Source: Candidatus Pacearchaeota archaeon (GTDB lineage: Archaea; Nanobdellota; Nanobdellia; Pacearchaeales; GW2011-AR1). Taken from it: 41,876 nt of DNA. The notes under the pieces are model-generated. The model was not told the DNA's origin. It was given only the letters and a program-made list of their open reading frames with translations, and ran no database searches. A program made the translations under genes and the position numbers. Where the stretch lies: assembly GCA_009694755.1 (NCBI GenBank), contig SICU01000003.1, positions 1-41,876 of the forward strand, in the 5' to 3' direction. This document shows, piece after piece, positions 7,158-31,176 of this stretch. Within the stretch, counting starts at the first letter, position 1. Each line of letters opens with the position of its first letter.

Positions 7158-7424
7158 TTATTTCTTTTTAATACTCTTATGATATTTCACAGCGTGAAAC
7201 ATCCCATAAAGTGCAACAAGAAGCCAAATAGCGTTCGTAACAAAGGAAGGATACGCCGAAACTACAAAAGTATGTCCCGCCAAAAGCAAAGAACCAATAA
7301 TATTCAACCATTGATACATTTTTGAACGTGAAGTCAAATCTTTATGAATAAGTAAAAAATAAGCAATGAGCAAAAATGCCGCACCAATCCAACCAACAAA
7401 AGTCATCACATTCATGCAAGACAA
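7158..7424 (-). CDS. CBU_0592-like small membrane protein
   Basis: VGWIGAAFLLIAYFLL...YQWLNIIGSLLLAGHTF...PSFVTNAIWLLVALYG pattern. Confidence 0.6.
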   Translation of the reverse strand: MSCMNVMTFVGWIGAAFLLIAYFLLIHKDLTSRSKMYQWLNIIGSLLLAGHTFVVSAYPSFVTNAIWLLVALYGMFHAVKYHKSIKKK

Positions 7425-7445
7425 AATTAGAAGAACTTAATAAAA

Positions 7446-8204
7446 CTACCCAAAAACATTTTTATAATTCTCTTCAATCTTTTTCTCAACTTCTTTCAAT
7501 TTCAAACCCTTAATTTCTGCAATTTTTTTGTAGCTTTCAAGAACATTAGCAGATTCATTCGGCCATTTTTTATCTGGATGTAAATAAGGTGAATCAGTTT
7601 CACAAAATAAATTTTCTATTGGAACTCGTTTAACAACATCTTGAAATTGTTCGCTGTATTTAATATTCGCAGGAATACTCAAAAACCAACCATTTTTAAC
7701 AATCCTATCAACTAATTTCATTTTCCCAGAAAAACAATGCATAATAACTTTCTTAGCTCCAATTTTTTCAAGTAACTCGATAGTTTGCAATTCGGCTTTA
7801 CGAGAATGCACGATAACAGGTTTATTCAATTTCATTCCGAGTCTAACAAATTTTTCAAAAATAATTTTCTGTTTTTCAAAAGAATCGTTTAATTCTTCGT
7901 CTTTTAAGTCAAGTCCAATTTCGCCAATAGCATAAATTTTTTTCTTATTTTTAACAATGAATTCAATTTCTTCTTCAATAACTAAATCAGTCAATTTTAA
8001 AGCATCGAGAGGATACATTCCTAAAGCCGGTTTAATTTCATCAAACTTTTTAGCGAGTTCAAGAATTTCGCGATTATGCGACGGATTTACTCCGTTGACA
8101 ACAATCGCTTCAACTTTAACTTTTCGCGCATGAGAAATCGCATCCGCGATAGAAACGCCTTCTTTTTCAAGCATATCTAAATGACAATGCGTATCTATAA
8201 ACAT
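7446..8204 (-). CDS. TatD-family metal-dependent hydrolase
   Basis: MFIDTHCHLDMLEK..., IGEIGLD, PVIVHSRKAE, MHCFSGK, CETDSPYLHP motifs; start placed at the internal Met (8204). Confidence 0.92.
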   Translation of the reverse strand: MFIDTHCHLDMLEKEGVSIADAISHARKVKVEAIVVNGVNPSHNREILELAKKFDEIKPALGMYPLDALKLTDLVIEEEIEFIVKNKKKIYAIGEIGLDLKDEELNDSFEKQKIIFEKFVRLGMKLNKPVIVHSRKAELQTIELLEKIGAKKVIMHCFSGKMKLVDRIVKNGWFLSIPANIKYSEQFQDVVKRVPIENLFCETDSPYLHPDKKWPNESANVLESYKKIAEIKGLKLKEVEKKIEENYKNVFG

Positions 8205-12368: not shown

Positions 12369-12451
12369 ATGAACCTATCGAGAATACTTCAATCTCGTAA
12401 GAGTTGAAGTCACCAGAGCGACTTGTTCGCTATGAGTGCTTCGATTCTCGA
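12369..12451 (-). ncRNA. tRNA-Ala trailer element: anti-T-arm, two hairpins, copy of tRNA 3' end
   Basis: Anti-T-arm 12440-12451 is a perfect 12-nt inverted repeat of 12465-12476; hairpins at 12411-12438 and 12386-12410; 12369-12385 matches the tRNA 3' end 12456-12472 at 16/17. Confidence 0.6.
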
Positions 12452-12456
12452 AACAA

Positions 12457-12527
12457 TGGACCTATCGAGAATCGAACTCGAATCTTTCGACTGCCAGCCG
12501 AACATTCTACCATTGAACCATAAGCCC
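12457..12527 (-). tRNA. tRNA-Ala(GGC)
   Basis: Cloverleaf GGGCTTA...TTCGG CTGGCAG TCGAA...GAGTTCGATTCTC...TAGGTCC; anticodon GGC; G3-T70 pair as expected for Ala. Confidence 0.9.
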
Positions 12528-21349: not shown

Positions 21350-22399
21350 ATGAAAAAAGAGATAATTTCAATAAAAACAATTAGAATTGGAAGGAATTTA
21401 AAAGTTTATGAAAAAACAGAAAAATCTTGGAAAATATCTAAGACAATAATTCCAAAAATTGAAGAAACAATTAAATTATTTAAATCAAATAATAATTTTA
21501 AAGAATTAATCGATAAAAAAGACAAACGTTTTTTGAAAGGGCAAATTTCTCCGCAAGGACAAATTCAAGGAGCAAGAATAAACATTCTCCCAGATGGACA
21601 AAAATTAGACAAGGCGTATTCATTACTTGCCAAAAATTTAACTTTCCACGATGAATCATCCCAGAGTCATTGGGATGTAATTTATCAAAATCCTAATGGC
21701 AATTTCGCATATTGTTATAATTTAGAAAAAAAGAAAAAATCTGTAAAAAATAAATACAAAAAAGTTGAAAAATTTGAAGAAATTTATCCTGAATTAGAAA
21801 AAAATGTTGAACACGCATTAAAAGACAAAAAAGATATTTATGCAGTTCCAATGTATACATTACTAAAAACATATATGAGAATAGGAAATGAAATGTATTA
21901 TAAAACAACAGGACATAAAGGATTAACAACGCTTACAAAAAAAGATATTTTACTAGATAAAAATGAAGCGACATTTGACTATATCTCAAAAAACGGAGTT
22001 CCGATGACTATAACTCAAGAATTTCCAAAAGAATATATTCAAAGAATGAAAGAAGAAATAAAAAATAAGAAAAATTCAGATTTTATATTCACTAATAATC
22101 ACAACAAACCGCTCAAAGACACGGATTTTATGAATGCATTTGAAAATTATTGCGGGGAAAGATTTTATCCGCACATAGTTCGTTCCTTTTATGCAACAAA
22201 AAAAGCCGAAGATTTTTTAAAAAGTCATAAAAGTGCAAAAAAAGAAGAAATTAAAGAATTATTTACCGAAATAGCAGAGAAATTAGGACATAAAAAGTTC
22301 GATAAAAAACAAAATGATTGGAAAGATAATTACTCTGTAACAATCCACTATTATATTCAACCAGACTTAGTAGATAAAATACAAAGGTTAGTTAAGTAA
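21350..22399 (+). CDS. Eukaryotic-type DNA topoisomerase IB-like / tyrosine-recombinase-fold protein
   Basis: LLKTYMRIGNEMYYKTTGHKGLTTLTKKDI resembles the TopIB core; HIVRSFYATKKAEDFLK; C-terminal Tyr-rich NYSVTIHYYIQPDLV. Confidence 0.75.
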   Translation: MKKEIISIKTIRIGRNLKVYEKTEKSWKISKTIIPKIEETIKLFKSNNNFKELIDKKDKRFLKGQISPQGQIQGARINILPDGQKLDKAYSLLAKNLTFHDESSQSHWDVIYQNPNGNFAYCYNLEKKKKSVKNKYKKVEKFEEIYPELEKNVEHALKDKKDIYAVPMYTLLKTYMRIGNEMYYKTTGHKGLTTLTKKDILLDKNEATFDYISKNGVPMTITQEFPKEYIQRMKEEIKNKKNSDFIFTNNHNKPLKDTDFMNAFENYCGERFYPHIVRSFYATKKAEDFLKSHKSAKKEEIKELFTEIAEKLGHKKFDKKQNDWKDNYSVTIHYYIQPDLVDKIQRLVK

Positions 22400-23979: not shown

Positions 23980-23995
23980 TTCCAGAATCGAGACT

Positions 23996-30976: not shown

Positions 30977-31060
30977 GCGGGGATGCCAGAGTGGTCAAAT
31001 GGGACACGTTAAGGCCGTGTTAGCTTAGTGCTTTCTTAGGTTCGAATCCTAATCCCCGCA
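30977..31060 (+). tRNA. tRNA-Leu with apparent anticodon AAG
   Basis: GCGGGGA/TCCCCGC acceptor; ACACG TTAAGGC CGTGT anticodon arm (AAG at 31011-31013); variable arm AGC-TTAGT-GCT; TTAGG TTCGAAT CCTAA T-arm. Confidence 0.88.
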
Positions 31061-31078
31061 TAAAATTATATTTTAAGA

Positions 31079-31176
31079 GAGATTGAAGTAAGGATTCGAA
31101 CGTTCTTCGAAATTGAGATTTCTCGAAACTTCAAAACTAGTAAATTTTGAAGTAATCCTAATCCCTACATAAAATT
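31079..31176 (+). ncRNA. tRNA-Leu trailer element: anti-T-arm, two hairpins, copy of tRNA 3' end
   Basis: AGGATTCGAAC 31091-31101 is an inverted repeat of 31040-31050; ACTTCAAAA/TTTTGAAGT hairpin 31128-31153; 31154-31176 matches 31045-31067 at 21/23. Confidence 0.6.

Follow-up and report, generated by a model that had tools for sequence, protein, structure and literature searches.

Hairpin-bearing units behind tRNA genes of Pacearchaeota: a possible family of gene-less mobile elements aimed at T-loops

Introduction

Integrative elements and genomic islands that occupy tRNA genes duplicate the 3′ end of the tRNA and preserve a functional tRNA (PMC8371274, PMC4383910). The units reported here, found behind tRNA genes of Pacearchaeota, share this feature, but they have neither integrase nor cargo, measure at most ∼240 bp with no integrase between their repeats, include native flanking sequence in the repeat, and carry an inverted copy of part of the T-arm (hereafter the anti-T-arm). 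Mitochondrial double-hairpin elements and yeast GC clusters are short, ORF-less, hairpin-forming and apparently mobile, with modules that merge and shuffle and with varying copy number (PMC2800124, PMC4478555). The archaeal units are likewise ORF-less repeated hairpins spread over the genome. The yeast clusters, however, are flanked by duplications of 2–3 nt, and a complement of the target gene is not reported for these mitochondrial elements (PMC2800124, PMC4478555), whereas the archaeal units stand behind tRNAs, with duplications of ∼16–50 nt and a tRNA-specific anti-T-arm. A third parallel may be offered by the attC arrays of integrons, archaeal ones included (PMC9668308), with folded single-strand sites in arrays, a preference for the bottom strand and a conserved extrahelical base. 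Unlike integrons, the archaeal units lack cassette genes and an integron integrase, are anchored on tRNAs, and show long, tRNA-specific direct repeats and both orientations.

Casposons and CRISPR arrays also duplicate their target at a fixed site, beside a tRNA or leader, and grow as arrays; the repeat of the archaeal unit, in contrast, is the tRNA end itself, and the carriers tested have no Cas1. The rtT repeats of Escherichia coli follow the tyrT tRNA gene in tandem and each reproduce its 3′ end; they occupy a single locus, and we know of no anti-T-arm family associated with them. IS200/IS605 and REP elements form single-strand hairpins and are guided to their target by base pairing; to our knowledge they do not duplicate it, and the Y1 transposase is missing from the unit carriers G000, G001 and G003. 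MITEs resemble the archaeal units in their target-site duplication, which here would take the form of direct repeats of tRNA end and flank, but the terminal inverted repeats of the archaeal units follow the host tRNA instead of being constant, and no parent transposon was identified. No description of such elements was found in open-licence papers, and on the best reading the units form an undescribed, ORF-less hairpin family directed at tRNA T-loops.

Results and Discussion

Two complete units in one contig

The window, i.e. the whole stretch of 41,876 nucleotides analysed here, is contig C28 of a 520-kb archaeal genome that is 85% complete; its same-genus and same-family matches are Pacearchaeota MAGs. 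It also carries genes for archaeal aIF5B and eIF2-gamma, and for a topoisomerase-IB-like protein (PF01028, 57.8 bits; 21350–22399, plus strand). Three tRNAs were identified by ARAGORN, and a complete unit lies behind two of them, tRNA-Ala(GGC) and tRNA-Leu(AAG), with perhaps a remnant behind the third, tRNA-Ser(CGA).

The tRNA-Ala(GGC) gene (12457–12527, ARAGORN and Rfam RF00005, 61.5 bits) and its unit are read on the minus strand. The presumed target is the T-loop and 3′ T-stem strand TTCGATTCTCGA (12465–12476). Behind the tRNA, a spacer TTGTT (12452–12456) leads to the anti-T-arm TCGAGAATCGAA (12440–12451), which complements the host T-arm at 12 of 12 positions and of which 8 nt pair with the downstream copy as well. 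Hairpin 1, GCACTCATAGCGAACAAGTCGCTCTGGTGAC (12409–12439), consists of a lower stem GCAC..GTGAC with a bulged A and an upper stem CATAGCGA/TCGCTCTG, and has one internal T-C mismatch. Hairpin 2, ACTTCAACTCTTACGAGATTGAAGT (12386–12410), has arms ACTTCAACTC..GAGATTGAAGT with one bulged A, and a run of 29 nt spanning its end recurs unchanged in the unit of tRNA-Ser(GCT). The copy of the tRNA-Ala 3′ end, ATTCTCGATAGGTTCAT (12369–12385), is identical at 16 of 17 positions and starts in the second half of the T-loop, at A58. All the pieces listed for this locus in the initial annotation, including the perfect 12-nt complement, the two hairpins and the 16/17 copy, were found in place by sequence, ARAGORN and Rfam. 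The two alternative pairings that it had proposed also exist: the minimum-energy fold of tRNA-Ala plus unit joins the anti-T-arm to the real T-arm, and the unit folded alone is a three-way junction closed by 8 bp (shuffle z −3.1 to −3.4).

The other locus that had been singled out proved equally real. The tRNA-Leu(AAG) gene (30977–31060, plus strand; ARAGORN, and above the Rfam tRNA cut-off in a genome search) is followed by a unit that extends to 31169, with a spacer (31061–31090) whose first 7 nt are repeated after the copy, an anti-T-arm AGGATTCGAAC (31091–31101; R1 match 31089–31162, E 3.2e-10), hairpin 1, GTTC..GAAAC (31102–31129), hairpin 2, ACTTCAAAA..TTTTGAAGT (31128–31153), and a copy of the tRNA 3′ end, AATCCTAATCCCTACA (31154–31169), all on the plus strand. 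The possible remnant, for which the evidence is weak, would be an anti-T-arm, AGAATCGA (23984–23991, plus strand), 4 nt behind tRNA-Ser(CGA) and with no copy behind it.

Occurrence across tRNA genes and genomes

The same plan, in the order native spacer, anti-T-arm, hairpin 1, hairpin 2 and copy of the tRNA 3′ end, is seen at roughly half of those tRNA genes in this genome that have sequence behind them, and the copy starts mostly in the second half of the T-loop. Examples are the genes for Ser(TGA), Ser(GCT), Leu(CAA), Leu(TAA), Gln(CTG), Gln(TTG), Phe, His, Gly(CCC), Lys and Arg. Tandem arrays also occur: perfect tandem units measure 81–89 bp, with two behind Leu(TAA) and two of 81 bp behind Gln(CTG), while Ser(GCT) has two units with different cores, and truncation is frequent among distal units. 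Three further genomes of the genus show the plan at lower density. In the four same-genus genomes together, 38 of 123 tRNAs (31%) are followed, at a distance of no more than 260 nt, by a copy of their own 3′ end (15 nt, at most 2 mismatches), compared to 78 of 14,825 mismatched pairs of tRNA and downstream sequence (0.5%), and the copies are therefore not due to chance. None of the 11 tRNAs checked in G004, a same-family genome without model matches, has such a copy.

A covariance model built from 16 units found relatives in 27 of 189 genomes and 13 of 88 genera of the family. In other genera these lie mostly within ∼20 bases behind tRNAs and have the right copy and anti-T-arm. The initial annotation would have been refuted by a lack of similar layouts behind other tRNAs or by substitutions that break the pairings with no compensation; the outcome was the opposite, as the layout first remarked upon at tRNA-Ala is family-wide behind other tRNAs, with stems that covary. 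A phylum-wide search gave matches almost only in this family, with one match in another family, behind tRNA-Met and with the complete plan. A few relatives are intergenic with no recognisable tRNA, and their closing stems differ (L148, L151, L156, L158, L160). Matches to the unit pattern in public genomes are Pacearchaeota MAGs and one archaeal record. The catalogue comprises 62 distinct units of 65–239 nt, canonical ones being 80–110 nt, which is too short for an ordinary gene. Presence is patchy even inside one genus. The carrier genomes are incomplete MAGs (62–94% complete). Some contigs end at units, and an assembly artefact was ruled out since different units recur in independent MAGs.

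Individual loci show further arrangements. In another genus, the region between the 16S and 23S rRNA genes contains a tRNA-Ala followed by a unit (L145, 1242–1395), which is, given this position, probably transcribed. On contig C4 of G000, tRNA-Gln(CTG) is found twice, 0.9 kb apart, with the same unit behind both copies and a small membrane-protein-like ORF between them (L136, 1940–3030). An orphan tRNA 3′ half, CCGGGTTCGATTCCCGGCCGGCGCA, precedes two units in L150 (from ∼1475–1499 onward), and its 5′ half is not visible in the 900 bases upstream.

Shared, shuffled and inverted cores

Units behind unrelated tRNAs have core sequences in common. Those of Gln(CTG) and Leu(TAA) share 44 identical nt, next to which the bases differ (C..G versus G..C), each fitting its own tRNA. 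Besides the 29 nt shared with Ser(GCT), the Ala unit has 23 nt of a different part in common with Ser(TGA), which argues that the hairpins shuffle as modules. A 24-nt piece is common to Leu(CAA) and Phe in inverted orientation, and the entire core is inverted in the Phe and His units. On this sequence comparison the core appears to be mobile. The initial annotation had put forward two readings, and one of them, an element that enters at tRNA 3′ ends and restores them, finds support in the many tRNAs hit and in cores that are invertible and common to unrelated tRNAs, as well as in tandem and decaying arrays and in direct repeats that continue beyond the tRNA and take in part of the flank.

Another repeated hairpin, TTTCATACTCCGCAGCGAG..GAGTATGAAA, is frequent behind tRNAs of the genus (L008, ∼1655–1746; L089, L115 and L117 in G001/G003) and one Gln(TTG) unit uses it as its core. 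The same tRNA-end copy, without the canonical hairpins, accompanies a second type of core, TTGACTCATAGAAC..AAGTTGTA (L095, L098, L100 and L104 in G002; L085 and L092 in G003).

Fit of the anti-T-arm to its host and duplication of the flank

The anti-T-arm follows the T-arm of its own tRNA. Position 57 of the T-loop, a G in some tRNAs and an A in others, has its complement in the anti-T-arm in 47 of 48 units, a figure tilted somewhat toward agreement by the choice of the best-matching placement in each unit; position 57 is present in the downstream copy of 13 of the 48 only. A rare C55 in the T-loop of tRNA-Lys of G003 is mirrored in the anti-T-arm. From inside to outside, the T-stem positions match in 40, 38, 29, 20 and 9 of 41 units, the outermost being at chance level, and no sign was seen that the copy decays faster in its acceptor part than in its T-stem part. 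Such a match could have arisen by T-loop-guided insertion with later improvement, by copying from the tRNA, or by maintenance under selection.

The direct repeat also extends past the tRNA end, with a mean leading identity of 2.9 nt, against 1.3 nt in shuffled sequence (truncated tandem copies are included and partly raise this value), and a clear flank duplication of ∼36 nt is present in L191, from another family. Target-site duplication is read here from these direct repeats of tRNA end and flank, and close strains yielded no unambiguous pair of orthologous sites, one empty and one filled. In the genus of G173, where an empty site was searched for, the intergenic region is not conserved. G173 itself, the one genome that came near to such a case, has an intron-bearing tRNA-Arg with no unit, and 1.35 units with the 3′ end of this tRNA elsewhere, inverted, beside the same 36-nt flank (L152, 1471–1600; L226, ∼480–670). 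With unit and flank on another contig in inverted order, the arrangement is ambiguous and may represent a strain variant, a rearrangement or a misassembly. L152 had been considered as an insertion in a non-tRNA target and was dropped as such, being a displaced piece of the tRNA-Arg unit.

Structure, covariation and strand bias

Aligned with one another, 26 canonical units drawn from several genera gave a three-way junction. Anti-T-arm and copy form its closing stem, the lower stem of hairpin 1 is GNNC/GNNAC with a bulged A, and hairpin 2 completes the junction; the bulged base is conserved in most units. Two-sided changes occur in 17 of 27 pairs, and the covariation score is 0.342, compared to 0.140 for shuffled alignments and at most 0.092 with partners slid. 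Covariation of the closing stem partly reflects just the fact that both its arms match the tRNA, while hairpins 1 and 2 covary independently. No Rfam family, the rtT RNA included, was matched by the units (cmscan).

Mismatches in the hairpins, counted on the tRNA-sense strand, are A-C in 40 cases and G-T in 15. When folded as DNA, 26 of 32 units are more stable on their bottom strand, and those that depart from this rule include the two with an inverted core; the effect is moderate, and the units are related and not independent. This bias points away from sense RNA and towards a possible role of the bottom strand, as in integron attC sites.

Candidate enzymes and alternative origins

Reverse transcriptase, Cas1 and Y1 transposase were each considered as the engine and rejected, all three being absent from the carriers G000, G001 and G003. 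Cas1 is absent from all nine carrier genomes tested. Reverse transcriptase is also lacking in G061, G092 and G071 and is present in G002, G058 and G082; the Y1 transposase is lacking in others as well and is present in G002 and G092. A dedicated integrase was likewise discarded, as G000 and G003 have, among tyrosine recombinases, nothing beyond a topoisomerase-IB-like protein and XerA. In G000 the identification as XerA was tested, the recombinase scoring 262 bits with NF040815 (cut-off 220) and 208.8 with TIGR02249, under the cut-off of 265. XerA is a mere candidate because it occurs in genomes without units too, and the search gave no enzyme linked to the units.

The near-solitary position of XerA nevertheless invites comparison with integrons, in which the T-arm would be the double-stranded attachment site, the folded unit an attC-like site, and the cassette nothing but a recombination site on which XerA acts. 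The T-loop between its T-stem strands looks like a 7-bp overlap bordered by core arms, much as the anticodon loop does elsewhere (PMC8371274), and the arrays, the 11-nt inverted repeat, the conserved extrahelical base and the bottom-strand bias all recall attC. Still, there is no integron integrase here, the protein being an archaeal XerA that falls below the integron-integrase cut-off and that unit-free genomes also possess; cores lie in both orientations; and the direct repeats run into the native flank, which a tyrosine recombinase with an overlap of 6–8 bp would not duplicate by itself. We regard this explanation as unlikely.

The other reading offered in the initial annotation was a tRNA-maturation switch with the copy as decoy. 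The unit would be co-transcribed with the tRNA and act in cis as RNA, its anti-T-arm either blocking the T-arm or pairing with the decoy copy. Parts of this stand: RNA folding predicts the disruptive pairing of anti-T-arm and T-arm in 32 of 37 units, the anti-T-arm exactly complements the T-loop of its tRNA, also at bases not contained in the copy, the stems covary, and the unit between the 16S and 23S rRNA genes is probably transcribed. A switch of this kind would accord poorly with patchy presence within one genus, inverted cores, sites with no recognisable tRNA, the excess of A-C instead of G-U mismatches on the sense strand, and a tRNA that is followed by tandem copies with different cores; moreover, the predicted effect would damage many tRNAs together. 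An RNA switch fits these data less well than an insertion element, and we think it improbable.

Homing endonucleases raise a further issue. LAGLIDADG matches, inteins included, were obtained in 8 of 9 carriers and 2 of 7 other genomes. Free-standing LAGLIDADG genes run up to or into the 5′ end of same-strand tRNA genes for Glu, Arg, Ile and Gln (L183, 1438–2355; L186, 1369–2217; L187, 1429–2082; L103, ∼7296–7523), and such genes converge on a tRNA in L150 and, probably, on two in L078. Cutting of T-loops, e.g. by these endonucleases beside tRNAs, might have been followed by template-switching repair that duplicated the tRNA end, inverted a piece of the T-arm and captured hairpins, and a comparable break/capture origin has been proposed for mitochondrial hairpin elements. 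The adjoining LAGLIDADG genes in several carriers, the inverted T-arm copies and the variable length of the duplication would suit such events, but the unit-rich G000 has no significant LAGLIDADG match and random capture would not be expected to yield a covarying core of such uniformity, which makes this origin quite doubtful. Finally, although copies of tRNA 3′ ends are the usual scar of islands in tRNA genes (PMC8371274, PMC4383910), it is scarcely credible that the units are direct repeats left by deleted islands once integrated in tRNA genes, as one covarying core is found behind more than 10 different tRNAs, in tandem and with tRNA-specific anti-T-arms.

Proposed mode of insertion

We consider it somewhat more probable than not that the tRNA-Ala feature is one insertion of a non-autonomous, ORF-less, structured family of mobile elements of Pacearchaeota that is aimed at the T-loops of tRNA genes. 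Under this insertion model the mobile part would be the two-hairpin core of ∼50–65 nt. It would enter beside the tRNA gene and duplicate a sequence that begins in the T-loop (in most cases at A58), runs to the tRNA end and continues for a variable length into the flank, with the real tRNA kept intact and the copy of its 3′ end closing the far side. The near side would be the inverted copy, i.e. the anti-T-arm, of ∼11 nt of host T-loop and T-stem, able to pair either with the downstream copy, closing the folded element, or with the T-arm of the tRNA. Repeated insertion and unequal recombination between copies might then produce tandem arrays that decay distally.

As to how such a core might move, we suggest that the active form may be the folded bottom strand, as single-stranded DNA or as its transcript, and that the anti-T-arm may serve as guide to T-loops. 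The enzyme would act in trans; XerA is the obvious host candidate, and nothing ties it to the element. It is tempting to speculate on a gene-less mobile system in which a folded hairpin strand finds its site by pairing of anti-T-arm and T-loop, re-fits its guide to each tRNA, duplicates the tRNA 3′ end and so spares the host, and grows arrays with host enzymes only, a proposal that we advance tentatively and that in this full form is more apt to be wrong than right.

Units of this kind are easily taken for assembly noise. The genomes of Pacearchaeota are near the lower size limit, and yet an appreciable fraction of their tRNA genes carries such cassettes. If the units act as RNA, they would constitute a widespread device of tRNA control in archaea. 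If they move, they would be among the smallest mobile elements known, would show that one of the most conserved loops in biology can be used as a landing site with no lethal effect on the host, and would raise the question of what moves a gene-free DNA of 80 bases.
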